Source: an uncultured Planctomycetaceae bacterium
GTDB taxonomy: Bacteria; Planctomycetota; Planctomycetia; Pirellulales; Pirellulaceae
DNA: 64,000 bases
Assembly: GCA_937862885.1 (NCBI GenBank)
Contig: CALMEE010000002.1
Location: 1-64,000 of the forward strand
Direction of reading: 5' to 3'
The translations under genes were made by a program, and so were the position numbers. This document shows positions 8,242 through 44,197 of the stretch, one piece after another. Below the pieces are notes generated by a model, which saw only the letters and a program-made list of their open reading frames with translations, made no database searches and was not told where the DNA came from. Each line of letters starts with the position of its first letter. The stretch's first letter is position 1.

Positions 8242-11200
8242 TCAGGAAACGTTACGTCGCTGGCGGCGTCGAGCCAAAGCGCAAACGCTGCCGATCAGTA
8301 GCATTCCCACACAAGACGGTTCAGGAATCGGATTGAAATTGCCGAGGGTGACTGAGTTGTTGGAGTATGTTACTTCGAAAAACCCGCCGCCTACGACATT
8401 AACTGTAGTTGATGCGTTGCTAAACACGCCACTCAAAGAGTTGGCGCTCAATATCACAAATAAGTCGGTAGAGTCAGGAACAAAACCATTCCACAAACTG
8501 ACGACTAAATTACCGTCGAGGGTGGCGCTGCCACCGACAAGCAAGTGATCGTAGCTGATGCCTTGATTCAAGCCACCGACCTCAATCAACAGACTGCCGC
8601 CACCGGCCTGTACATAACTGCCGACAATTTCCAGTTCACCTGGCGACAGTCCCGGAGCGAATGTTGCCGATGTATTCGAGACATTGCCATTGATCGTGCC
8701 GTTACCGAATACTAGGCCGCCCGTGAAATCGTTCATGGCTCCGGTCAAGTTGACCGTAGCTCCGTCGAACAAACCGAGCGAACCACCCGACTGCGTGTAG
8801 TCGCCATTGACCGTCAAACTCGTCAGGGCACCATCCAAGATCATGTTACCTGCGTTGGCTAATCCGCCGGTGAGGTTCATTGTGCGTCCGTCTCGCAAAA
8901 TGAGCGATCCAGCGATAGTGTCCAAAGTCGAATCGATCGAGATGTTCGCGGCTCGCACAGTGAAGTTCGAGTTGGCTCCGCTCAACTCGATGGCAGCGGT
9001 GGCCCCGATGGTGTTGATCAGACTCGTGGTGTTGTTCTGCACGCGAACGTTGGCACCGGCACCACCGTCGATGGCTCGCCAAGTTCCCTCGACTAACGTT
9101 CCAGCCGAAATGCTCTGAGTGATGGCACTGCCGTCAAACAACAAATTGCCGCCATTGAGTGCCTCGTAAACACCCCCGCCTTTGAATTCACCGCCTCCAC
9201 TACCGGTCAAGGTCAATGTTCCACCCGCCGCGCGAACCGTGCCCGTGTTATCAAAGGTTGCTACGCCAGCGCCAGCATTTCGCGGGTCGATGACGAGATT
9301 CTCCCCAGTTCCGGACAGGATTGTCCCCTGATTGATGATCTCCAACACATTGTTGCCGACGTTGCCGTTGCCGGAGATGATGTTATCAACGTTCGTCAAG
9401 GTTCCAGTGCCAGTGATTCGAGTCAAGTTCGTCGAAGTCAGTCGAATCGTCCCACCACCATCCAAAGTCGTGGTACCCGAATTAGAAATGGACGTGACAT
9501 TTCCCACCGTGGTTAAAAGAATGTCTCCCGAGTTAGTCAAACTGTTTTGGAGAAACAAGCTGGTGTTATTGTTCAGAACCATGTTGCCGTTGAGGGTCAC
9601 ACCGTCAAAAGTTCCTGTGCTGCTGTTCTGCAGTCGAATTTCTCCGCTGCCTGAGGTCGCAAAGGTCGTATTGCGAGCGATCAAGCCCGAGACCAGATCG
9701 ATTCGCGAACCGCCCTCAGCTCGGTAAGTTCCGCTGCCGCCGAATTCGCCCCCGGCGTTTCCGGTTAGCACGACCACACCGCCATCAAAGGCGCGCACCA
9801 GGTTCTGGTTGTCGAAGGCGATATTTCCTCCTCCCAAATTGGCCGGATCGATCGTCAGGACCTCGCCTGCCCCAGCTTGAAAAGTCCCCTGGTTAACGAT
9901 TCTCAGCAAGTTGTTGCCAATCATGCCGTTACCGGAGATTGTATTGTCAACGTTCGTCAGAAAGCCGGAGCCGGCGATTCTCGCAACATTCCCGCCCGCC
10001 AGTCGAACCGTACCGCCGCCGTCCAGCGTCGTCGTACCGGAATTTGACAGCGTAGTGGCGTTTCCAATTGAGTCTATTAAAATGTCCCCCGAGTTGGTCA
10101 GGCTCGTCGCAATCGTCATCGTCGAGTTGTTGCGTAGGACCATGTTGCCGTTGAGGGTCACATCATCAAAAGTTCCTGCGTTGCTATTCTGCAACCGAAT
10201 TTCTCCACTGCCTGAGGTCGCAAAGGTCGTATTGCGAGCGATAATCCCCGAGACCAGATCGATCCTGGAGCCCGCTTCAGCCTGATAGGTTCCAATGCCG
10301 CCGAATTCGCCTCCAGCGTTTCCGTCAAGTACGACCACACCGCCATCAAAGGCCCGCACCAAGTTCTGGTTGTCGAAGGCGATATTTCCTCCTCCCAAAT
10401 TGGCCGGATCGATCGTCAGGACCTCGCCTGCCCCAGCTTGAAAAGTCCCCTGGTTAACGATTCTCAGCAAGTTGTTGCCAATCATGCCGTTACCGGAGAT
10501 TGTATTGTCAACGTTCGTCAGAAAGCCGGAGCCGGCGATTCTCGCAACATTCCCGCCCGCCAGTCGAACCGTACCGCCGCCGTCCAGCGTCGTCGTACCG
10601 GAATTTGACAGCGTAGTGGCGTTTCCAATTGAGTCTATTAAAATGTCCCCCGAGTTGGTCAGGCTCGTCGCAATCGTCATCGTCGAGTTGTTGCGCAGGA
10701 CCAAGTTTCCGTTGAGTGTCACACCGTCAAAGGACGCCGTATTGCTATTCTGCAGTCGAATTTCTCCGCTGCCTGAGGTCGCAAAGGTCGTATTGCGAGC
10801 GATAATCCCCGAGATCAAATCGATTCTGGAGTCCGCTTCAGCCTGATAAGTTCCGCTGCCACCGAATTCGCCTGCTCCATTTCCTGTCAGCACCACAATC
10901 CCGCCGTCGAACGCGCGAACCAACCCACTATTGTTGAATGAGGCATTTTCGGTACCAATGTTGCTGGGGTCGATCAACAGGGATTGTCCACTCCCCGCCT
11001 GGACGGTCCCCAGGTTGTTAATTGACAGCAAGTTGTTTCCCAAATTTCCTGAGCCCTGAATGGTGTGATTGGCACCGTGAGTTAAAGTTCCCGATCCCGA
11101 AATAAAGGCGGTATTTGAAGCGCCGTTGAAATTAATCGTACCGCTGCCATTGATTGCGGTAGTGCCCAAAAAACTCAGGAATGTCGTATTGCCAATCGAA

Positions 11201-11604
11201 TTGATGTTGAGCGTTCCGTCATTGTTCAAAATTCCTGCACCGGCTTGGCCTGTGTTACTGATAGAGAGCGTTCGATTGTTGAGGATATTGAGCCCATCTC
11301 CCGCGTCGATGTTGAGCTGGTTGATCGTGGACGTCAAATCCATGTTCACCGTCGAGTTGCCAGCATCGCCATTATCGATGAAGACATTCCAGTTCGTTCC
11401 TCCATTCCCGTTGTTAGGGACGAAGCCACCGCTCCAGTTACCCACAGAATTCCAAATGCCGGAACCCCCACCGATCCAGTTGGTATTGGTTTGTGCTGAC
11501 AGCGAACCGGCATAGAATGCCAAAGTACAAGTAGTCGCGGCAAATAGAAGTGGCTTACATATTGCCAAGTTTAGTTTTGTTCGAGCGTGTAAACGGCAAC
11601 TCAT
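8242..11604 (-). CDS. Large PEP-CTERM surface protein with beta-helix repeats
   Basis: A 1120-residue exported protein. A signal peptide covers about residues 1-38 (basic start, hydrophobic core, cleavage near LSAQ). The body is rich in Gly, Asn, Ser and Thr, with repeated patterns such as TLDGGGTVRLAG, SLTNSGDI and GGEFGGSGTY, typical of autotransporter-like right-handed beta-helices. The C-terminus is a PEP-CTERM sorting tag: PEP, a hydrophobic stretch and a basic RRRQRR tail. Such proteins are processed by an exosortase; none is encoded in this window. Three related units of about 187 residues lie in the middle, two of them partly identical at DNA level. It may be an adhesin or matrix protein; the function is inferred only from architecture. 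Confidence 0.88.
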   Translation of the reverse strand: MSCRLHARTKLNLAICKPLLFAATTCTLAFYAGSLSAQTNTNWIGGGSGIWNSVGNWSGGFVPNNGNGGTNWNVFIDNGDAGNSTVNMDLTSTINQLNIDAGDGLNILNNRTLSISNTGQAGAGILNNDGTLNINSIGNTTFLSFLGTTAINGSGTINFNGASNTAFISGSGTLTHGANHTIQGSGNLGNNLLSINNLGTVQAGSGQSLLIDPSNIGTENASFNNSGLVRAFDGGIVVLTGNGAGEFGGSGTYQAEADSRIDLISGIIARNTTFATSGSGEIRLQNSNTASFDGVTLNGNLVLRNNSTMTIATSLTNSGDILIDSIGNATTLSNSGTTTLDGGGTVRLAGGNVARIAGSGFLTNVDNTISGNGMIGNNLLRIVNQGTFQAGAGEVLTIDPANLGGGNIAFDNQNLVRAFDGGVVVLDGNAGGEFGGIGTYQAEAGSRIDLVSGIIARNTTFATSGSGEIRLQNSNAGTFDDVTLNGNMVLRNNSTMTIATSLTNSGDILIDSIGNATTLSNSGTTTLDGGGTVRLAGGNVARIAGSGFLTNVDNTISGNGMIGNNLLRIVNQGTFQAGAGEVLTIDPANLGGGNIAFDNQNLVRAFDGGVVVLTGNAGGEFGGSGTYRAEGGSRIDLVSGLIARNTTFATSGSGEIRLQNSSTGTFDGVTLNGNMVLNNNTSLFLQNSLTNSGDILLTTVGNVTSISNSGTTTLDGGGTIRLTSTNLTRITGTGTLTNVDNIISGNGNVGNNVLEIINQGTILSGTGENLVIDPRNAGAGVATFDNTGTVRAAGGTLTLTGSGGGEFKGGGVYEALNGGNLLFDGSAITQSISAGTLVEGTWRAIDGGAGANVRVQNNTTSLINTIGATAAIELSGANSNFTVRAANISIDSTLDTIAGSLILRDGRTMNLTGGLANAGNMILDGALTSLTVNGDYTQSGGSLGLFDGATVNLTGAMNDFTGGLVFGNGTINGNVSNTSATFAPGLSPGELEIVGSYVQAGGGSLLIEVGGLNQGISYDHLLVGGSATLDGNLVVSLWNGFVPDSTDLFVILSANSLSGVFSNASTTVNVVGGGFFEVTYSNNSVTLGNFNPIPEPSCVGMLLIGSVCALARRRQRRNVS
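9802..10134 (-). repeat. 333-bp perfect internal duplication, copy 1
   Basis: Identical base for base to 10363-10695. The offset is 561 bases, exactly 187 codons, so the reading frame is preserved. Flanking parts of the same 187-residue unit have diverged, so identity is limited to this core. Confidence 0.9.
10363..10695 (-). repeat. 333-bp perfect internal duplication, copy 2
   Basis: Second copy of the core repeat at 9802-10134, in the same gene and orientation, 561 bases away. Perfect identity at synonymous positions indicates recent duplication or gene conversion. Confidence 0.9.
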
Positions 11605-12105: not shown

Positions 12106-14160
12106 TTATTTGCGAATGGACTTCACGGCCTGTGCAATCTTGTCGCTGTAGTCTGGCCAGAGCGCTTTGGTTGATCGAGGTAGACTCAACACGTAGGTGT
12201 GACCTAGTGCAGTCTCGCCCAGGTAATCAACATTGGCCTGGGCAAACACCTTGTCTTCCCCTGGTACTGGCAAACCGAGACTAAAGTCATCAGGGAGTTT
12301 GTCGGTGGCATAACGCACGGTTACCGATGTAATGTCTTGCTTTAAATTTGTCGGGGCGTGCATTAAATAGAATTCGCTAACGCCGACTGAGAGTGTCCAA
12401 TCCTCAGGCTTGACCGACAACAGGGCCGCGATCAATTCTTGTCTGGGGGGCAGTGTCCCTGTCTCGAGTGTGACGCGTAAGCGATTCGAATCACGATGAA
12501 TGGTTTGCGTGGCCCATTTCCCTCCGGATGCGAAGATCTCGTACTCGCGTGCTTCCGACAGCAAAAACAATTCGCCCACATCCACATCTTCCCACAAGAG
12601 ACGCACTTCACCCGGTTCAAGCGTGACTTTCTGGCCTGAAGTTTGACGCTGTAAGCCAATAAATGCTGGTGGCTCTACGGCATGGGGCCGCTCCGCTCTT
12701 AAAACACGAAAAGGCACGTAATTCTGCGGATCGAATTGCGTAGGCTTGTCACCGGCATTCCGCAGTTCTAACTTGACCTTCAGAGGTTGACCGACCTGCG
12801 GCCGTGCGGTTTGTAGGGTCAAACGAGATTGCAAGCCGGAGAGTTCGGCGATCATTCCCCAATCGTCGTCAGATCCAGTTTGTTCCGTATCATCAATTGG
12901 TCCCAAGTTTTCGTGTTTATCCGCTGCAGGAATGAGCGCGTTGTTTCGCATCACATTCTCAGATAACCTCGACGTAGCTGCCACAGGCAAGAGCGTATTT
13001 GGTAGGGTCGGAACCCTTGCCGCCGACGATGAAATCCACAACCCCCCTGCTGTTAGCAGAGCCGTCGATAGAACGAGCAGTCCTGCCTGCCATTTCGTGG
13101 CTGGGTGAATGTCTTGGGGGAGCGCAATACGGCGAATGCGATCGACGAGTGCACCGCCGGATGACGATACCGCAAGAGCAGCCGAGCAACGAGTCTCCTC
13201 CAAGCGTGCCAGAGCCTTGGCCAGCGCTAGCCGATCGCCACAGACCGTTAACGCCAGATCATCACAACAGTTTTCTCGTTCTAGGCGAATCACTCGCGAA
13301 GTCCACCAGGCCGCTGGATGATAGAACAACAATGTTTCGACCAATGTCTGAACCAAGTTCATTAGCCAGTCGTGTCGTCGAATATGGGCCAGTTCATGTG
13401 CCAAGATCGATTCGACCTCATTCGTCGTCATTGCCGAAATTACGCTGAGGGGGACGATCACCACTGGTCGCCAGAACCCAACAACGCAAGGCACCGATAT
13501 TTCAACGGATTGCAACAGTCCTACGCGACTCCGCATTCCAAGCCGACGTGAGAGTTGTTCGATCAATTGGATCAGCTTAGAGTCCACCACAGGTTGGCCG
13601 CGGCGTCGCAAGCGAGTGACGTGCCACAATGCGCCCAACAACCTAACCGAAAAGACGATAACACCAACGATCCAAAATGCCGAGAGTAGGGGCATCCACC
13701 GTGCGAGGCCGAGTCCATTGGTATGCCCCGCGATGAATTGCAGCATCCAGTTATCTCGGATACCTGTGTTGACTCTACCATCCGCGTGATCTGAGTCACC
13801 AAGGACGGATAACGCAACATCGCTGTCAGGCGTCGACGAGGCTGGGTTTCGTTTAATCGCGTCCGATGACTCGCTTGTTATCGCGGAACCCGAGAGGGCA
13901 ACTGTTTGTTCACCGCGCCATCGCCCATGATCGATGTTGGCTAACAAATAGAGTAGTGTAGCGACTGGCAACAGGGCCATCATCGCCAAACACGCGCAGG
14001 AAAGTGCATATCGTGTGGTCGCAGAATTGCGACGCAACAGCCGGAGGCCGCAGTACAAGAGAAAGGCCACGGCAGCTCCTTGCCAAAGCGAATGAACGAG
14101 CGTCCAGCCGAGCACTTCGGCAATAGGGTGTTGAACAAATGTATTCCAAATCGAGTTCAT
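12106..14160 (-). CDS. M56 family membrane metallopeptidase, BlaR1/MecR1-like
   Basis: A 684-residue membrane protease, partner of the BlaI-type repressor just upstream. The N-terminal half has several membrane segments and the zinc motif HELAHIRRHD at about residue 255, followed by a further conserved ENCCDD segment. After another membrane segment (about 350-370), the C-terminal half is an extracytoplasmic domain with an Ig-like pattern (PLKVKLELRNAGDKP), not the penicillin-binding sensor of BlaR1. So the sensed signal is probably not a beta-lactam. In the family, the activated protease leads to cleavage of the repressor. The start overlaps the repressor stop as ATGA, indicating coupling. 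Confidence 0.88.
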   Translation of the reverse strand: MNSIWNTFVQHPIAEVLGWTLVHSLWQGAAVAFLLYCGLRLLRRNSATTRYALSCACLAMMALLPVATLLYLLANIDHGRWRGEQTVALSGSAITSESSDAIKRNPASSTPDSDVALSVLGDSDHADGRVNTGIRDNWMLQFIAGHTNGLGLARWMPLLSAFWIVGVIVFSVRLLGALWHVTRLRRRGQPVVDSKLIQLIEQLSRRLGMRSRVGLLQSVEISVPCVVGFWRPVVIVPLSVISAMTTNEVESILAHELAHIRRHDWLMNLVQTLVETLLFYHPAAWWTSRVIRLERENCCDDLALTVCGDRLALAKALARLEETRCSAALAVSSSGGALVDRIRRIALPQDIHPATKWQAGLLVLSTALLTAGGLWISSSAARVPTLPNTLLPVAATSRLSENVMRNNALIPAADKHENLGPIDDTEQTGSDDDWGMIAELSGLQSRLTLQTARPQVGQPLKVKLELRNAGDKPTQFDPQNYVPFRVLRAERPHAVEPPAFIGLQRQTSGQKVTLEPGEVRLLWEDVDVGELFLLSEAREYEIFASGGKWATQTIHRDSNRLRVTLETGTLPPRQELIAALLSVKPEDWTLSVGVSEFYLMHAPTNLKQDITSVTVRYATDKLPDDFSLGLPVPGEDKVFAQANVDYLGETALGHTYVLSLPRSTKALWPDYSDKIAQAVKSIRK

Positions 14161-14546
14161 GGTTTACCCTTTTCCAATTCATCAATCAATTTGCGAATTT
14201 CAGCCAACTCAGCCGGGGTCGACTTGCGGGCTGTTAAGGCCTGTACTACTAACTGTTGAGCGGAGCCAGCAAAAACCTGTTCCAGTAACTCCTTCACGAT
14301 TCGCCGCTGAGTCTTTTGGCGACTGATGGCGGGAGAGTAAATATGCGAGCGGCTGGATGCATCGCGCGTGAGCAAGCCTTTGTCAAACATGATTTGCATT
14401 AGCTTGAGCGTTGTCGTGTATCCGGTCCCGCGTTCCGGCTCCAGAGCGTCCTGAACCTGCCGCACGGTCGACGGCCCGCGTTCCCACAAAACGTGCAAGA
14501 TCGCCATTTCTGCCTCGGTCGGCTTGGACGTGGAACGTTTGTTCAT
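14157..14546 (-). CDS. BlaI/MecI/CopY family transcriptional repressor
   Basis: A 129-residue winged-helix repressor: the TEAEMAILHVLWERGPSTVRQV segment and the YTTTLKLMQIMFDKGLL recognition region are typical, and the C-terminal helices serve dimerisation. It should repress its own operon until cleaved through the M56 protease encoded downstream. The start is the ATG at 14546, the first position giving the normal family N-terminus; the frame can be read to 14582 but those codons are not conserved-looking. A strong promoter with two dyads lies about 90 bases upstream. Confidence 0.92.
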   Translation of the reverse strand: MNKRSTSKPTEAEMAILHVLWERGPSTVRQVQDALEPERGTGYTTTLKLMQIMFDKGLLTRDASSRSHIYSPAISRQKTQRRIVKELLEQVFAGSAQQLVVQALTARKSTPAELAEIRKLIDELEKGKP

Positions 14547-14631
14547 GCGGTATTTACTCCTGACTTTGAATCCGATTGACATCCTGCGACTGGCTCGCGT
14601 ACCCAGCTACGATTCACCGTCGGAAATGACA

Positions 14632-17030: not shown

Positions 17031-18695
17031 ATGACGGTTCGCTTTCTTGTTTTTCTGCTGGTGGTGCTGCAGCATCTTTTGATGACTGGGGCGTTGCTGG
17101 CGCAAAACAAATACGCGTTCATAGTGGGTGTACAGAATTATGATCCCGAGTTTTTTCAGAACCTGCGATTTGCTGAATCCGATGCGACAAAACTCGCAGG
17201 CCGCTTGAGGTCGATGGGTTACGCGACGATTCTGATGACTTCGGGCCAGACGAATCCCCAACACAAGCCGACGACCCCTGCCAAAATCCTCCGTTTGCTT
17301 GACGGTCAGCTTCAAGCGATTGGTCCGGCAGACACATTTATCTTGTCATTGAGTGGCCACGGCATTCAATTCAAAAGCGAGGAGGCGCTGGAAGGTGGTG
17401 GAAAAGAAACGTATTTTGTGCCCGAAGAGGGTTCGTTGGAAGATAAGGAGAGCCTGCTGCCGATTGTCAAAGAGATCATCTCCCGCGTCGATCAATGCAA
17501 GGCAGAACGTAAGCTTGTGTTGATCGACGCTTGTCGTAATGAAGTATTGTCTCCGTCTGGTGATCGAAGTTCGAAGAAGATCGATCTGGGGAGCGTTCAC
17601 GAGCATGTTCAGTTTGTCCCTAAGGGAATGGCGGTGGTGTTCAGTTGCCAAGGCGGACAAAAGTCGTGGGAGAATGAAGAACTGCAGCACGGCGTGTTTA
17701 CGTCATTTATCTTAGAGTACTTGTCGGGTCAAGCCAGCAGCGACCTATACGACGGCCGACTCGCCGACGCGAGTGGCATGATTGAGTACGCTCGTCGCAA
17801 GACGAATCAGTATGTGATTGAGAAGATTACACCTGCCGGCCAGTATCCCGAGCGAATTGGGGACGTGGAGCAATGGCCGATCGGTCGCGTGGGTCCGTCG
17901 CTGGAATTTACGTCTCAGTTCGGTCATGAAATGGTGTTGATTTCTGAGGGCGTTTTCGAAATGGGATCGCCTGAATCCGAGCCGGATCGCGAGGATGACG
18001 AAAAACAACATCGTGTCCAAATAACCAAAGCCTTTTATATGTCGGCGCATGAGATTACCGTTGAACAGTTTCGCGCCTTTGTCACCGCGACCACTCGGCA
18101 GATGCCGCAGGCAGAATTGGGATTCGATAGCAAGACAGCGTCGTTTATTTACGGCGAATATAACTGGGAGAACCCGGGCTGGAAACAAACGCCCCATGAT
18201 CCAGTTGTCTTGGTGAGTTGGCAGGACGCGACCGATTATTGCCAGTGGCTATCCTCGATCGAAGGTCGGAAGTACCGGCTTCCCAGTGAGGCGGAATGGG
18301 AATATGCCTGCAGAGCCGGTGCGGATACACCCCATCCCTTTTCGCTGAATGAGATCGACGAACATGCTTTTTATCTGGGCGAGGATTTGTCCGCAGTTGG
18401 CAATGTGCCGTCAAGTTTAACTTCACCGGTTGGCCAGTTCAGGCAAAACGTGTTTGGTATGTTTGATATGGTCGGCAATGTCAAAGAATGGTGTCACGAT
18501 TTTTACGGGAAAACGTATTACGAAGTGTCTCCGTTGCAAGACCCCGTGGGACCAGCAGACGGTCGCCGTCGCGTCATTCGAGGCAGCGCATTCAACTCGG
18601 AGATCACCGCATTACGGTCCGCAAGTCGCAGCAGTTCGCGATCGGATAATCGATTTCCCAACGTAGGCTTTCGCATTGTTTGCGAGGTCGAGTAG
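17031..18695 (+). CDS. Exported caspase-like (C14) protein with SUMF1/FGE-like domain
   Basis: A 554-residue fusion. A signal peptide (about 1-24, ending ALLAQ) precedes a caspase-fold p20 domain with the catalytic dyad His110 (LSGHG) and Cys168 (IDACRNE). From about residue 300 to the end is a formylglycine-generating-enzyme-like domain (EMVLISEGVFEMGS, EITVEQF, YRLPSEAEWEYACRAG, MVGNVKEWCHD, RVIRGSAF, VGFRIV). The cysteine pair of true FGE is missing near RVIRGSAF, so this part is probably a binding domain. The ATG at 17031 follows GGAGA by 6 bases and starts the signal peptide. It is the first gene of an operon with two more exported proteins (gaps of 54 and 10 bases). Predicted to act outside the cytoplasm; target unknown. 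Confidence 0.88.
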   Translation: MTVRFLVFLLVVLQHLLMTGALLAQNKYAFIVGVQNYDPEFFQNLRFAESDATKLAGRLRSMGYATILMTSGQTNPQHKPTTPAKILRLLDGQLQAIGPADTFILSLSGHGIQFKSEEALEGGGKETYFVPEEGSLEDKESLLPIVKEIISRVDQCKAERKLVLIDACRNEVLSPSGDRSSKKIDLGSVHEHVQFVPKGMAVVFSCQGGQKSWENEELQHGVFTSFILEYLSGQASSDLYDGRLADASGMIEYARRKTNQYVIEKITPAGQYPERIGDVEQWPIGRVGPSLEFTSQFGHEMVLISEGVFEMGSPESEPDREDDEKQHRVQITKAFYMSAHEITVEQFRAFVTATTRQMPQAELGFDSKTASFIYGEYNWENPGWKQTPHDPVVLVSWQDATDYCQWLSSIEGRKYRLPSEAEWEYACRAGADTPHPFSLNEIDEHAFYLGEDLSAVGNVPSSLTSPVGQFRQNVFGMFDMVGNVKEWCHDFYGKTYYEVSPLQDPVGPADGRRRVIRGSAFNSEITALRSASRSSSRSDNRFPNVGFRIVCEVE

Positions 18696-18749
18696 CGATT
18701 CTAAATTCATCACAATAAATTTGGTCAGCAAAAAGTTTGGAAGGTAACG

Positions 18750-20174
18750 ATGCAAGCGAGAAATTTCATAAACGCAAGATGGTGGGCTGGCGTGTTCATG
18801 TTGAGCGTGCCGTTGCTCCTAATACCGTCGGCGGGTACGTTGAGCGCATGTTCTGACGGACTTGCCTATCAGTGGTTTGGTGTCGCGATGTCATCGTATG
18901 TGCTGACGCCGACAACACCCGAGCCGGGATTAACTCCGCCAACAACCCCCTTAACTTATAAGAACGAAATTGAGGCCGTTGACTACATTTCACGCCAACT
19001 CGAGCAGCAATTGCGTAGCGCCTCAGCGCGTTCCATTTTTGTGCGGCATTTTCGCGGTCCTGGCAGCAACGAGTTACAGATCACGAATTTGTTAACGCAG
19101 TCGTTGGAACGACAGTTCCCCATCGGGCCCGGGGGAGCAGAAATCGAAGGGCGAGTGCGCTCTCTGCCGGGTGCGAACGATGGGCCGGCTTCTGGCTATC
19201 GGATTACGGTGAGTGTGGAAACGCAGTCCGGCATTGAATTGCCCGGAGTTTCCGTAGATGTCATGAATGATATTGAGGCAAACATGAAGCTCAAAGAATC
19301 GGGTGCGGTGCGTCCTCAGCCGCCCCGAGAAGAAGGTCGGTCCGTAGATCCCATCCGTCTTCAGAAACCGCCCATAAGTGATTTGATCGTCGGGAGCAGA
19401 ATCTACGCTGCGCCTGGCAGCCCCTACTCCATGGAAATTCTTGTGCGTGATCCAGATGGAAATTTTGTTCCACGGCAGCCATTTATCGAACAAGATGCGA
19501 TTGTCGTAAAGTTGGAACGCGGCGAAGTTTACCGTGTGCGCGTGTTCAATGATTCAGTCTACGAGGCGTTCGCATTCTTAAATATCGACGGCTTGGGAAG
19601 ATTTGCCCTGAGCCATGATCCCCAACAACGTCGCAACATCGACCTGGTGAAGACGAAAGCGAATCGAGATTTTGTCGGCTATTACTTGACCCCCGATCGC
19701 GCGGCGAGTTTTATGGTCGGCTCATACGAAGATTCGGTTGCGAAAAGAGTTTTGGGAGATGCTCCGGATATCGGCACGATCAGTGTCGCTTTTGGATGCA
19801 CGTGGGTTGGCGATAACATACCGGCATTCGAGCGAGAAACCAAACAAGTTGAACGCCAAATTACGGAAACCATCAATGTTCCGGTGGAAGTCGTAGTGCC
19901 GCGGACGATTGTCGAGCAAGTTGAAGTCCCAATAAAGGGTGCTTATGGATCACGTGCTGGTGGACCCCCACCGACCAGAACGGAAACGCGCACGCGGACG
20001 GTGATGGAAACCCGCACGGAGATGCGTCAAGAGATGCGGACGCGCACGGTTGTCGAAAACCAAGTGGTCGGAACGACGGAGGGACCGGCGGTCGGCGACA
20101 ACGTCCGCACGGTATCTCGCAAGTTCGGTTTGACACGTGCAGTAATTAAAGTCCGGTACTATGCCACCAACTAA
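18750..20174 (+). CDS. Exported protein of a new family (paralogue of the protein at 43085)
   Basis: A 474-residue protein with a signal peptide (about 1-34). The N-terminal part resembles CsgG/LpoB-like folds by pattern only (SIFVRHFRGP, then a helix and AEIEGRV). The central domain (about 210-355) has a run of motifs shared with the product of 43085-44197: PYSMEILV, GEVYRVRVFN, a FxVGSYEDSVA segment, and GTISVAF. It ends with RKFGLTRAVIKVRY, also shared. Between these is an insert rich in Arg, Thr, Glu and Met with TRTRT/TRTEM repeats. AAGG precedes the ATG by 6 bases. It is the second gene of the caspase operon; its stop lies in the ribosome binding site region of the next gene. Function unknown. 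Confidence 0.8.
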   Translation: MQARNFINARWWAGVFMLSVPLLLIPSAGTLSACSDGLAYQWFGVAMSSYVLTPTTPEPGLTPPTTPLTYKNEIEAVDYISRQLEQQLRSASARSIFVRHFRGPGSNELQITNLLTQSLERQFPIGPGGAEIEGRVRSLPGANDGPASGYRITVSVETQSGIELPGVSVDVMNDIEANMKLKESGAVRPQPPREEGRSVDPIRLQKPPISDLIVGSRIYAAPGSPYSMEILVRDPDGNFVPRQPFIEQDAIVVKLERGEVYRVRVFNDSVYEAFAFLNIDGLGRFALSHDPQQRRNIDLVKTKANRDFVGYYLTPDRAASFMVGSYEDSVAKRVLGDAPDIGTISVAFGCTWVGDNIPAFERETKQVERQITETINVPVEVVVPRTIVEQVEVPIKGAYGSRAGGPPPTRTETRTRTVMETRTEMRQEMRTRTVVENQVVGTTEGPAVGDNVRTVSRKFGLTRAVIKVRYYATN

Positions 20175-20184
20175 AGGAACCGCA

Positions 20185-21240
20185 ATGTTTAGAACATGCT
20201 CTTGGATTTTTTGGATCAGCCTGTTGATGAATTGGGGTATAGACTCGTCCCATGGGCAAATTCGCACGCGCCAGCAATTGGCCGATTCCATTGTGAAGGA
20301 ATTTCAAGTCTTCGCGCGCGGACAGCAAAAAGTCGTAGTACGAGAGTTGCGAGTGCCCGAAGGCGTAGACCACGAGCTAACGGATCTGCTCAAGCAACAA
20401 TTGCAGTCGCAAGGGATTTCGCCAGCGTTATCCGCTGCCTATGAAATCGAAGGGCGCTTCAAAAATAAGCGCGCTGGAACTTCTGTGTCTCGAGTCTTTG
20501 AGGTCAAGATTATCAACCCGCAGGGTTACGACCATACGCGTGAGTTTAGTGTGCCCGTTACTTGGTCGTCGCTAGGCGAAACTGACATTCCAATCGATAG
20601 TCAACCAATAAGTCCCTCTGCTGGGCATCAAATCTATCCAATTCAAGAATGGAAGCACTATCGCTTGCCGGCTGACGCGGTGAATGAGCTGACGAATGGA
20701 TTTATAACCAGTGAATCATCGTGGCGTCGGTTTTGGGCAAAAACCGGCTCGTTATCTCCGTTGCCTTATGTCGATTTTCGCGAGCAGGTGATACGCGTGG
20801 AGACTGCACCGTATCCTCGAACCATCAGCGCGTCTATTTATTCAGCGGGTGAAGGGCGCGTGGACCTTAAAAAAGATATTTCCAGTGACCCAATCGAACC
20901 AGGGGGGAATTTGAATGCCCACGTTCTCTTGATTCGAATTTCTGAAATGGGGGAGCGTAGAGGTGTGCGGTTCGGAGTAACCGTAGATCCCGCGCAGTCG
21001 GGTCGAGGCGTTGTGATTACGAGTACGGTTCCTAATTCGCCCGTGACTCGCGGCTGGTTTGACGATGGGCGCTCCGTCCAATTGGAGGCCGGCGACGTGA
21101 TTCTCTCGATTAACGGCATCCGCACCGACGCAGTTAGCACGTTCGCTGAGATCATCAGAAATACAGACTCCATCATTCGAGTCGACATCCTGGATGTGCG
21201 CACAGGCAACGTAATATCGGCAAACTTCCGGCTGGAGTAG
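20185..21240 (+). CDS. Exported PDZ-domain protein of the caspase operon
   Basis: A 351-residue protein with a signal peptide (about 1-25, cleavage near SHGQ). The first domain shares its pattern with the two family paralogues in this window (KVVVRELRVPEG, helix, AAYEIEGRF). A middle part (about 175-260: SESSWRRFW, PYVDFREQVIRV) is reminiscent of the PrcB C-terminal domain, which is a weak call. The last 90 residues form a PDZ domain (RGVVITSTVPNSPV, LEAGDVILSINGI). The ATG at 20185 is chosen because AAAGGAA lies 5 bases upstream; a longer frame from 20161 overlaps the previous gene. PDZ domains bind C-terminal peptides, so it may present or recognise substrates for the caspase protein; that is inference. 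Confidence 0.78.
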   Translation: MFRTCSWIFWISLLMNWGIDSSHGQIRTRQQLADSIVKEFQVFARGQQKVVVRELRVPEGVDHELTDLLKQQLQSQGISPALSAAYEIEGRFKNKRAGTSVSRVFEVKIINPQGYDHTREFSVPVTWSSLGETDIPIDSQPISPSAGHQIYPIQEWKHYRLPADAVNELTNGFITSESSWRRFWAKTGSLSPLPYVDFREQVIRVETAPYPRTISASIYSAGEGRVDLKKDISSDPIEPGGNLNAHVLLIRISEMGERRGVRFGVTVDPAQSGRGVVITSTVPNSPVTRGWFDDGRSVQLEAGDVILSINGIRTDAVSTFAEIIRNTDSIIRVDILDVRTGNVISANFRLE

Positions 21241-21352: not shown

Positions 21353-21462
21353 TGTTGCTGGAAAGTGAACTCCGCGAGGGGGAGCCGTGAACCGGGTCAG
21401 GTCTGAAATATGGAGCAGCCCTAAGCGGGGTACTCTTGTGCGGAGTTCACTTTCCGGCAATG
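21353..21462 (+). ncRNA. ffs: Signal recognition particle RNA (4.5S type)
   Basis: The conserved apical SRP domain is present: GGTCAGGTCTGAAATATGG followed by AGCAGCCCTAAGCGG, which binds the M domain of Ffh. The two ends form a long stem: TTGCTGGAAAGTGAACTCCGC (from 21355) pairs with the segment ending TTTCCGGCAA (21460) with a single G-U pair. The size of about 110 nucleotides matches the short bacterial SRP RNA without an Alu domain. The gene lies upstream of dnaX-ybaB-recR, the same neighbourhood as scr in Bacillus. Confidence 0.92.
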
Positions 21463-40936: not shown

Positions 40937-43000
40937 ATGAGAAGAACTTGCGTGCGCACTAACCTAATTTTGATAACAATCAGCTTTTTTGTGGGGTTCG
41001 TTCTCGCCAGTCGCCTCGATGCCCAGCAATATGACATCGAATTATCGAAGCAAGCCACGGAAATTTTGCGCGACTATTGCAAGTTATGTCATGGCGATGA
41101 CTTTAATTTTCCGCTGTTGGATGTGATGTCGCGAGAATCGCTGTTAGCACCAAACGGAAAGAACAAGAAGCCGTTTGTGGTTCCAGGAAAACCAGACGAA
41201 TCACGAATTTGGTCGCGCATCAAGGCTGACGAGATGCCGCCTGACTACATGCCTCAGCTGTCGGAAGACCAAAAATCGATCGTTCAGCGCTGGATTGCGG
41301 ATGGTGCTTACTTCCCGCCAATTAGTGCCGAAGAGCGGACTGTGCGTCCATTTTTTGGCCAAGAAACCACGCTGCAGATGATTTCGGAAGACTTGAATAA
41401 TATCGACCAAGAGGACTATCCCTATATCCGTTATTTTTCGTTGATGCATCTTTGGAATAATGTCGAAGGCCCTGACCCGATCACCGATGAAGATTTGCGG
41501 ATGGTGCGTGCGGCGGTGTCGAAGATGATCAATAGTCTTTCCACGCGTCCGAGAATCGTCCCGCCACGTGTTGTCGAAGCGGAATACGGCACGTTGCTCG
41601 CTATCGATTTGCGCGACTACGGGTGGACGAGTTGGCATTGGAATCAGCTGCTCACTGAGTATCCTTATGGATTGCGAATCGGCGGGCGTGATGCAAATCG
41701 AGTTTACAATTATTTAGGGACGCGCGTGCCCTACCTGCGTGCCGATTGGTTCGTGTTTCATGCATCGCGGCCGCCTTTGTATCATACGCTGTTGAATATC
41801 CCCATGAATGCCAAGACGTTAGAAGAACATCTTGGAGTGAACATTTATGAGAACTTCACGAAAAACACGCTGATGCGAGCGGCCTTTGACGGCAAGTCGA
41901 GCGGGGTATCCAAACAAAACCGGCTGGTTGAGCGTCACGAACCTACGCGAGGCACGCGGTTCTATTGGAAGAGCTATGACATGCTGCCGGAGGTGGCTTC
42001 GACTGCAGCGGGAGACTTCACTCGCAGTCCACTGGGTCCGATATTCGAAGAGTATGCTGGTCGACGACAACTGGCTGCTTTCGAACATGATGGCGGCGAA
42101 ATTATCTACAGTCTTCCTAATGGGTTGCAGGCGTACATGCTGGTGGATGGCAAAGATCGACGCATAGATGCCGGGCCGTTGTCAGTTGTCCAGGATCCTA
42201 ACCAGCACTCGAACACGCCAGAGATTGTTAATGGTATCAGTTGCATGGGCTGTCATGATCAAGGCATGATTACTTGGAAAGCCGATCAAATCCGCCCCAT
42301 CTATTTGCCGCAACAAGGTTCAGCCGTTGCCGACAAGGTGCTGAAACTGTTTCCCGAGAATGATGTTTTCCAGCGAATTGTGGATGAAGACCGCCAATAT
42401 TTCATGGAAAATCTGAAGAAAGCAACCGGTGACTTCTTGATGGCAGGCCAACGGAAACGTGATGCTCAAGCCATGACAAAGTTCTATACGGGCTTATTGC
42501 AAGCGACGGATACCAAATACGACGCAGCTAAACTTGAAGGCTTCGTTGACGAGGAAATGGCGCGTCCGAATATGGAAACCATGGAGCGCAAACAGCTGGT
42601 GATGAACATGATCGCCAAAGGCAATGATAAATTCGAGTGGGGACTGTCCATCGATGATGCAGTGGCCATGTACGAAATCAATCCGATTAAACATGAAACC
42701 AGTTTCAATAGTTTTGCTGATCCAGTTACCAAGATTTCGAAGATCTATTATCGCGATGTAACGATTCATGACATCGCTCGGGAACTTGGCTTGCCGGATC
42801 GACAAGAAGATGCTGACCGGCTCAACATGAAGACTGCCGCGCATCTCAAACTGATGTGCAGTATGCCGCAATTCCAGAACCTGGGACTGGCCACATTGTC
42901 GCAAAATGGTGGAACCATCAATCGTGCAACTTGGGAACGAGCATATGGACGTGTGGCTCGCGAAATGGGATGCGGCGTGCCGGTTGATATTCAGCAATAA
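40937..43000 (+). CDS. Exported di-haem c-type cytochrome-like protein
   Basis: A 687-residue protein with a signal peptide (about 1-30) and two CXXCH haem motifs: C48-K-L-C-H52 in a PSCyt1-like N-terminal domain (about 35-125), and C436-M-G-C-H440 in the middle. The rest is mixed alpha/beta without a family I recognise. It is probably periplasmic and involved in electron transfer. It is followed after 84 bases by the gene for the new-family protein at 43085, with the same orientation, so they probably form an operon. Substrate unknown. Confidence 0.8.
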   Translation: MRRTCVRTNLILITISFFVGFVLASRLDAQQYDIELSKQATEILRDYCKLCHGDDFNFPLLDVMSRESLLAPNGKNKKPFVVPGKPDESRIWSRIKADEMPPDYMPQLSEDQKSIVQRWIADGAYFPPISAEERTVRPFFGQETTLQMISEDLNNIDQEDYPYIRYFSLMHLWNNVEGPDPITDEDLRMVRAAVSKMINSLSTRPRIVPPRVVEAEYGTLLAIDLRDYGWTSWHWNQLLTEYPYGLRIGGRDANRVYNYLGTRVPYLRADWFVFHASRPPLYHTLLNIPMNAKTLEEHLGVNIYENFTKNTLMRAAFDGKSSGVSKQNRLVERHEPTRGTRFYWKSYDMLPEVASTAAGDFTRSPLGPIFEEYAGRRQLAAFEHDGGEIIYSLPNGLQAYMLVDGKDRRIDAGPLSVVQDPNQHSNTPEIVNGISCMGCHDQGMITWKADQIRPIYLPQQGSAVADKVLKLFPENDVFQRIVDEDRQYFMENLKKATGDFLMAGQRKRDAQAMTKFYTGLLQATDTKYDAAKLEGFVDEEMARPNMETMERKQLVMNMIAKGNDKFEWGLSIDDAVAMYEINPIKHETSFNSFADPVTKISKIYYRDVTIHDIARELGLPDRQEDADRLNMKTAAHLKLMCSMPQFQNLGLATLSQNGGTINRATWERAYGRVAREMGCGVPVDIQQ

Positions 43001-43084
43001 CACTGGATAAGACCTGCACGACACCCGTTGCCCGACCACCAACTTAAAACACAAATCGATACATATAAAATTCGGAGTATATCA

Positions 43085-44197
43085 ATGAGGACCATTCTGA
43101 CATGGATAACCGCTGGCACACTGTTGCTGGGCTTTGCTGGGGCGACCGTCCGAGCCAACGAAACAGAACCGGTGATTGCGCAGGCTATGGAAAAAGTGTG
43201 CGTCGCCGTGATGAAGATTCTGCAGGACGAAGGGCGGAAACACGAGATCATCGTGGGTGATATTTCCGGAATGCCGAATCTCAAAGCAAGTGGCGGCGTC
43301 GAACTCGCTCGGCAACTTGAGTTGGCGCTGGAGCGTGCCGGCATTCGTGTTCACGATGACGCCGACACCCAGCTCATGGGGACGTTCAACATGATCCAAG
43401 ACAAGGCACATCCGGACCATGACTTCGATTCACTGGCTATGAAAATCCATTTGAAGCTGATGGATGAATTTGGCAAGGAACTTGCCGAGCCAGAGATCTT
43501 GGTGTATGGCAATCAAATCTTGCAAATTGCTGGGATCAACACGCATATTCCCCCGCAAAGTACCCCTAAAGAAAAACAACAAGAAATTATTCGCCAATTC
43601 AGGAAACCGGACACCGGTTTGACCGGCAATCAGGTTCACGCGGGAGGTCCGTTCGCAATTGAAGTTTTCGTCAACAATAGTGGAAAACTGTTATCTAAAG
43701 TTCCGTCGATCGATACAAAAGGTCGGCCATTCGTTCCGCTGCATCATGGTGAAGAGTATGTCGTGCGATTGCACAACCATGCGGATTTCGAAACGGCAGT
43801 GACCTTGGTGATTGACGGCGTGAATGTGTTTGTGAATTCCCAAGATCCAGGATTGAAGGCAGATAGCAAATTTATCGTAAAGGCTAAATCAGCCGTCGAT
43901 ATTCCCGGGTGGTTCATCACCAAGAGCCATTCCAAGGCGTTTGAAATCGGCGGCTATCTGGAAAGTGTTGCGGCGCAAAAGGGAGTGCAAGCATCGTCTG
44001 GAAAAGTTGGAACGATCACGGCCGTCTTTCAAGCCTCGTGGGAAGTCGGTGGACGACCCCCAGCAGACGAGCCATCAGGCAATCCAAAAGGTGGCAAGGC
44101 AACCAAAGAAGGTCGAGATATTACCAAAGAATATCAGCAAGTCACGCGCGACTTTGGTGTTGTCCGTTCAACGATCAGCGTGCGTTACGATCGCTAG
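43085..44197 (+). CDS. Exported protein of the new family (paralogue of the protein at 18750)
   Basis: A 370-residue protein with signal peptide (about 1-22). Its first domain (HEIIVGDISGMPNL, a helix and a QLMGTFNM strand) and second domain (PFAIEVFV, GEEYVVRLHN, an IDG motif, F-x-IGGYLESVAA, GTITAVF) match the product of 18750-20174 in order; the ends RDFGVVRSTISVRY and RKFGLTRAVIKVRY also match. It lacks the Arg/Thr-rich insert. The ATG at 43085 has GGAG seven bases upstream. The partner here is a di-haem cytochrome rather than a caspase. Function unknown. Confidence 0.78.
   Translation: MRTILTWITAGTLLLGFAGATVRANETEPVIAQAMEKVCVAVMKILQDEGRKHEIIVGDISGMPNLKASGGVELARQLELALERAGIRVHDDADTQLMGTFNMIQDKAHPDHDFDSLAMKIHLKLMDEFGKELAEPEILVYGNQILQIAGINTHIPPQSTPKEKQQEIIRQFRKPDTGLTGNQVHAGGPFAIEVFVNNSGKLLSKVPSIDTKGRPFVPLHHGEEYVVRLHNHADFETAVTLVIDGVNVFVNSQDPGLKADSKFIVKAKSAVDIPGWFITKSHSKAFEIGGYLESVAAQKGVQASSGKVGTITAVFQASWEVGGRPPADEPSGNPKGGKATKEGRDITKEYQQVTRDFGVVRSTISVRYDR

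Follow-up and report, generated by a model that had tools for sequence, protein, structure and literature searches.

A conserved planctomycete gene module of a di-haem cytochrome c, an LpoB-like protein and a putatively exported caspase

Introduction

What bacterial caspases do is, to our knowledge, mostly obscure, and the search for their roles has concentrated on the cytoplasm. In the stretch of planctomycete DNA analysed here (64,000 nucleotides, hereafter the window) a caspase gene with an apparent export signal heads a compact operon of three genes, and the question that it raises is which genes such a caspase is tied to and what might control it. An earlier note on this DNA had suggested that the three genes form an extracytoplasmic proteolysis or sensing module. 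By sequence comparison, however, the conserved unit is not that trio; it consists of a di-haem cytochrome (P5), a protein of a family without a name in which an LpoB-like domain is followed by an Ig-like domain (P24), and a probably exported caspase, and may be called a "cytochrome-adaptor-caspase" module.

The caspase operon

The three genes lie on the forward strand with gaps of 54 and 10 bp, in full agreement with the positions and strand given previously, and a purine-rich ribosome-binding site stands upstream of each start (Table 1). Signal peptides had been claimed for all three products; judged by hydropathy only, there is a strong N-terminal hydrophobic segment in genes 1 and 2, whereas that of gene 3 is weak. 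The operon ends before a small bacterial SRP RNA (21361-21457) that is situated between gene 3 and dnaX. Upstream of the operon, on the reverse strand, are a gene for an M56 peptidase of the BlaR1 type, preceded by a short gene that resembles a BlaI-type repressor (12106-14582), and, at 8242-11604, a gene for a 1120-aa repetitive exported protein whose tail is PEP-CTERM-like and in which Pfam finds no match.

Table 1. Positions of features in the window and of neighbouring genes at other loci (locus identifiers given).
Feature	Position	Strand	Evidence
Gene 1 (P0001), 554 aa, putatively exported caspase (Peptidase_C14) with SUMF1/FGE-like domain	17031..18695	+	Pfam, N-terminal hydrophobic segment, tree
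Gene 1, caspase p20-type domain	17109..17744	+	Pfam and catalytic-motif inspection
Gene 1, catalytic codons	His110 17358-17360; Cys168 17532-17534	+	
Gene 1, SUMF1/FGE-like domain without FGE cysteines	17925..18680	+	
Gene 2 (P0002), 474 aa, divergent P24-family protein	18750..20174	+	P24 HMM 6e-76; tree
Gene 2, possible lipobox LSAC (LSAC34)	18840-18851	+	
Gene 2, LpoB/TolB-N-like domain, residues 71-173	18960..19268	+	AF2 model, VIA-align
Gene 2, Ig-like beta-sandwich region, residues 215-474	19392..20171	+	AF2 model, structural alignment
Gene 2, Arg/Glu-rich low-confidence insert (likely disordered), residues 354-437	19809..20060	+	
Gene 3 (P0003), 351 aa, P24-type N-domain, middle part and C-terminal PDZ	20185..21240	+	
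Gene 3, P24-type (LpoB-like) N-domain	20257..20532	+	P24 HMM 3.5e-8; hhalign 1.1e-6
Gene 3, PDZ domain	20959..21150	+	PF00595
P5 (P0005), 687 aa, di-haem c-type cytochrome	40937..43000	+	PSCyt1 27.9 bits; CxxCH motifs; tree
P5, CxxCH haem motifs	41078-41092 and 42242-42256	+	
P0004, 371 aa, canonical P24-family protein directly 3' of P0005	43085..44197	+	family searches, tree
~160-aa Tyr-rich protein, examples	L030:8787-9329; L032:10422-10898; L047:12106-12600; L053:12368-12856		
ECF sigma factor and partner genes	L025:14920-16508; L029:7338-8809; L055; L083; L103; L146:15489-17002		

Gene 1 joins a Peptidase_C14 domain (residues 27-238, 57.4 bits against a curated Pfam cut-off of 21.4) to an FGE-sulfatase domain (residues 299-550, 184.7 bits). 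The His110/Cys168 dyad is complete, with both the SGHG and the DACRN motif present, and the earlier reading of an intact caspase dyad is therefore correct; Asp166 precedes the catalytic Cys and gives the DAC of the orthocaspase type. Proteolysis after Arg or Lys is predicted from this Asp-X-Cys motif together with the known preference of orthocaspases (PMC6426788). When aligned with human FGE, neither of the two catalytic cysteines is met by a Cys in gene 1 and the aligned stretch GSAFNSEITALRSAS is Cys-free, which confirms that the SUMF1-like domain is without the FGE cysteines; because these are absent the SUMF1 part, whose nearest solved relatives are PvdO and FGE, is more likely to be a binding domain than an enzyme. 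A comparison with the EACC1-associated caspases (NF047832) gave 46.7 bits, under the NCBIfam cut-off of 140.

No Pfam family scores over its cut-off in gene 2, and the structural assignment comes from an AF2 model (41-row alignment, mean pLDDT 75.7). Residues 71-173 match the C-terminal domain of LpoB (4q6z) with a VIA-align Z of 11.4 and an rmsd of 2.2 over 95 residues, PelC, TolB and FlgT being the next fold matches, while residues 215-474 are similar to Ig-like sandwiches, at Z values of at most 6.5 that are not diagnostic. An insert of 84 residues, 13 of them Arg/Lys, occupies a place where most relatives have 4-20 residues; pLDDT drops below 50 for its residues 378-419, and an Arg-rich insert was found only in gene 2. 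Searching the PDB with the P24 sequence profile yielded nothing useful, and Foldseek alone gave no match at E 0.001 for the gene 2 and P5 models. Two candidate domains were rejected: MG4 (macroglobulin), which at 18.0 bits is below the cut-off of 24.7 and was retained only as an Ig-like hint, and DUF4384, considered for the C-terminal region of P24, which has no Pfam match in P0002 or P0004 and whose family search matches no P24 site. A single-sequence search located relatives of gene 2 in 8 of 97 other genomes, and a paralogue (P0004) is present within the window itself.

The PDZ domain that had been recognised at the C-terminus of gene 3 is there, with a PF00595 score of 24.3 bits that is barely above the Pfam cut-off of 23.2. 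The claim of an N-terminal domain common to genes 2 and 3 also stands, at profile level only (hhalign E 1.1e-6, HMM 3.5e-8), for a direct BLASTP of one against the other finds no match and the common domain thus rests on the profiles. Unlike HtrA-type PDZ proteases, in which a trypsin-like domain accompanies the PDZ, gene 3 has no protease domain by Pfam, and PrcB_C, suggested by eye for its middle part, gave no match genome-wide at E 10, nor with the fragment. Full-length relatives of gene 3 were found neither in 98 related genomes nor in about 100 further loci scanned, matches in other genomes being confined to the PDZ, and by the refuting condition that the earlier note had set, the three-gene set is therefore not conserved. 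Among the PDZ domains nearest to that of gene 3 are those of three small caspase/C13-like proteins of the Pirellulales with a PDZ-type C-terminus (L036:6679-7794, L038:7622-8761 and L040:6576-7790), the match in L038 being by phmmer only.

The conserved cytochrome-P24-caspase module

Loci were gathered by fetching up to 20 kb around relatives of genes 2 and 3, and a P5 profile, run against 84,980 species genomes, gave 80 loci. With duplicates removed there were 39 loci with P24, of which 31 also had a caspase match, one of these (L029) without catalytic motifs; at three of the eight P24 loci lacking a caspase (L051, L061 and L068) the contig ends just after P24. The commonest and usual order is P5-P24-caspase on one strand with short gaps, P24 usually coming after P5 and the caspase before or after P24, and co-directional junctions, mostly with short gaps, number 34 for P5-P24 and 25 for P24-caspase. 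Intact operons are seen at L043, L044, L027 and others, and copies of the module occur in the cultured Rhodopirellula rubra, Singulisphaera acidiphila, Lacipirellula limnantheis and Neorhodopirellula pilleata. A typical P5 has about 600 aa with two CxxCH motifs and PSCyt1, and the caspases carry SUMF1, TPR or WD40 partner domains, WD40 in many loci. The dyad is intact in 42 of 46 caspase matches, whether of the module or related, and a signal-like hydrophobic segment was present in 37 of 38 caspases of P24 loci; on such hydropathy evidence only, the parts of the module are probably exported.

Where loci had been recruited by P5 alone, a caspase was present in 22 of 27 with P24 as against 2 of 38 without it (Fisher p 1.4e-10). 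Starting from P24, a caspase was found within 5 kb at 13 of 22 loci in 14 genomes, compared with 0.13 expected from caspase density (42 caspases in the 88.9 Mb of 14 whole genomes that were picked for carrying P24, not caspases), the remaining 9 loci being without a caspase match in that distance. Such p-values overstate the association, since related genomes are not independent, and the spread of the module over five planctomycete families (Pirellulaceae, Planctomycetaceae, Gemmataceae, Isosphaeraceae and Lacipirellulaceae) is a better argument. The earlier note's proposal of an extracytoplasmic protease with partners of its own finds good support in the proximity of the gene-2 family to exported caspases, far above chance; its more specific set of three genes does not hold, the conserved trio being P5, P24 and the caspase.

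Two natural fusions join parts of the module. At L090 P5 and P24 form one protein, and the caspase encoded next to it has a possible lipobox. Only two P5 loci have a caspase in the absence of P24, namely L099, where the caspase immediately precedes P5 at the end of a contig, and L079, where a single protein (L079:4350-7823) contains FHA, a TM helix, a caspase domain in which neither catalytic residue is present, and a P5 with three haems, so that caspase fold and haem domains would be on the same side of the membrane. Caspase-P24 loci with no adjacent P5 also exist (L028, L145 and L147), and P5 is thus not obligatory; at L147:7591-12575 P24 is followed by a tandem pair of caspase-SUMF1 genes and P5 is absent nearby.

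Two further kinds of gene were observed around the module. An exported Tyr-rich protein of about 160 aa (RQYYSSW...YYYNP...YWGRYD) that belongs to no Pfam family is near it in 11 loci; it could be a client or a further, fourth component. A gene for an ECF-type sigma factor, together with a partner gene of 300-350 aa, lies near several modules and hints at a stress regulon.

The P5 cytochrome

P5 has PSCyt1 with a CxxCH at its N-terminus and no other Pfam domain over cut-off. Across 36 relatives the second haem motif is invariant and the first is kept in at least 90%. In a predicted model (36-row alignment, mean pLDDT 86.1) residues 29-134 are similar to class I cytochrome c, and residues 288-450, which include the second CxxCH, weakly resemble cytochrome c'-beta at Z values below the trust level (7ead Z 5.8, 7s5o Z 4.7). 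Sequence searches of this second region for cytochrome P460/c'-beta gave no match; the modelled likeness is suggestive, both being haem proteins. Longer relatives of P5 (about 700-1550 aa) were discarded as parts of the module, there being no P24 or caspase nearby; one that was scanned has TPR. Such longer forms occur in Rhodobacteraceae (L108, L111-L120 and similar), and in one of them (L108) there is a C-terminal DUF4384, which may stand in for P24.

A split module in the window

P5, P24 and the caspase are not in one operon in the window, where all three are present in two places: P5 and P24 lie together at 40937-44197, and the caspase is found 22 kb upstream, accompanied by two additional adaptor-like genes. 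Maximum-likelihood trees of P5, P24 (P0004) and gene 1 from the window each place the gene with its counterpart in the L043/L044 operon, with supports of 100/99, 100/99 and 100/96, respectively. Because the three trees each point to one intact operon, it appears that the caspase became separated from P5-P24 and now has genes 2 and 3 as new neighbours. Gene 2 is a diverged copy of P24, its placing in the P24 tree being unsure owing to a long branch, and gene 3 is a P24-like domain fused to PDZ. The reduced caspase-P24 arrangement is not unique to the window, as the three loci without an adjacent P5 demonstrate. The genome to which the window belongs has further lone caspases, without P24 or P5, on contigs C8, C53, C64 and C128 of G000.

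Comparison with known systems

In animals cytochrome c triggers caspases in cell death, by way of an apoptosome of cytochrome c, Apaf-1 and caspase-9. The module resembles it in pairing a cytochrome of the c type with a caspase, and in the WD40 repeats of many of its caspases, but WD40 is here on the caspase itself, the cytochrome is large, exported and has two haems, and neither CARD nor an NB-ARC NTPase was seen. The likeness is at most a functional parallel of parts, not homology of the systems. No NB-ARC, STAND or NACHT domain was found among the module proteins scanned with Pfam, a scan that took in a minority of the flanking genes.

Bacterial metacaspases and orthocaspases share with the module Peptidase_C14, the His/Cys dyad, Asp-X-Cys and extra FGE-sulfatase, WD40 or TPR domains, and caspase-FGE-sulfatase and caspase-WD40/TPR proteins are already known (PMC3501461, PMC4933709, PMC5756287); the module caspases differ in their probable export and in their link with P24 and a di-haem cytochrome. 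The words cytochrome, heme and haem are absent from the main text of the Asplund-Samuelsson 2012 survey of metacaspase operons (PMC3501461). VMAP (vWA-MoxR ternary) and related caspase conflict systems include caspase and FGS (SUMF1-type) domains and occur in planctomycetes, but have vWA, MoxR/iSTAND NTPases or GTPases at their core (PMC7159879), none of which was seen in the module. P24 has the N-domain fold of the LpoB, TolB-N, PelC and FlgT proteins, from which it differs by its added Ig-like C-terminal region and a sequence identity of about 10%, and no gene for a penicillin-binding-protein partner was seen in the module. P5 is like the planctomycete PSCyt1 cytochromes in its PSCyt1 with an N-terminal CxxCH, and unlike them in its second, weakly cytochrome c'-beta-like haem region and the lack of any other Pfam domain. 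A literature search that covered few subscription papers found nothing matching a cytochrome-caspase module and no paper with both PSCyt1 and caspase. What appears new is the composition of the system, each part belonging to, or folding like, a known family.

Possible functions of the module

The composition, conservation, co-localisation and fusions of the module, its intact dyad and its haem motifs are all read from the sequences; we infer export (from hydropathy), haem-gating, Arg/Lys specificity and the substrate. The best explanation, to which we give an even chance, is an exported Arg/Lys-specific caspase under the control of a haem protein by way of P24. P5 would respond to redox state or to a haem ligand (NO, peroxide or oxygen), P24 would relay the state of P5 or tether the caspase to the envelope, and the protease would cleave envelope proteins after Arg or Lys. 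The Arg-rich disordered loop of gene 2 is a plausible built-in substrate, and the PDZ of gene 3 a plausible recruiter of cleaved C-termini. Against this explanation count the separate operons of caspase and cytochrome in the window, the 9 of 22 P24 loci without a caspase match within 5 kb, the caspase-P24 loci that lack P5, the catalytically dead caspase of the L079 fusion and a P460-type, gas-binding likeness of P5 that stays below the trusted Z; P5 could also serve plain electron transfer.

An envelope-maintenance protease free of haem control, in which P24 ties the caspase to machinery of the outer membrane or the peptidoglycan and the cytochrome is co-operonic through a common stress with no contact, is rather unlikely, although it agrees with several observations. 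The proteins that P24 matches best in fold (LpoB, TolB, PelC and FlgT) all belong to the envelope, the ECF sigma factors and their partner genes would fit an envelope regulon, and there are caspase-P24 pairs without P5. It accounts poorly for the fusion of P5 to P24 at L090 and to a caspase fold at L079, and for the rarity of a nearby caspase (2 of 38) among P5 relatives without P24. It is improbable that the caspase is instead a processing enzyme that matures secreted precursors, presented to it by P24 and PDZ proteins while the cytochrome supplies oxidising equivalents: likely export of all parts (by hydropathy), the PDZ of gene 3 and the variety of interaction domains (SUMF1, WD40 and TPR), which suggests varied clients, would suit such a role, but the module has no dedicated client gene except for the Tyr-rich protein, and a constitutive maturation enzyme would need no haem protein. 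Least probable by a little is self-destruction or defence, a loose apoptosome parallel in which the cytochrome would signal an attack or a failure of respiration and the cell would be killed by the caspase, for although cytochrome c, caspase and WD40 repeats on the caspase itself are the parts that it would call for, all parts appear exported, whereas the described bacterial caspase conflict systems act with cytoplasmic NTPases (PMC7159879), no STAND or NACHT NTPase is among the scanned proteins, and the PADLOC match of the gene 1 caspase is weak at 28.2 bits.

Control of the caspase by P5 can be taken one step further, though tentatively. The module may be a bacterial equivalent of caspase activation under cytochrome c control, in which the haem state of a dedicated di-haem cytochrome c, relayed by an LpoB-fold adaptor, would switch the exported caspase. 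If this possible haem switch exists, the pairing of cytochrome and caspase would be independent of the animal apoptosome or, possibly, would predate it.

Implications

The conserved operon and the fusions give a testable activator and a testable compartment for a whole class of exported caspases. A gene set that is widespread in planctomycetes invites comparison with the triggering of animal caspases by cytochrome c, and the existence of a cytochrome-caspase link outside eukaryotes becomes a question that can be tested directly.
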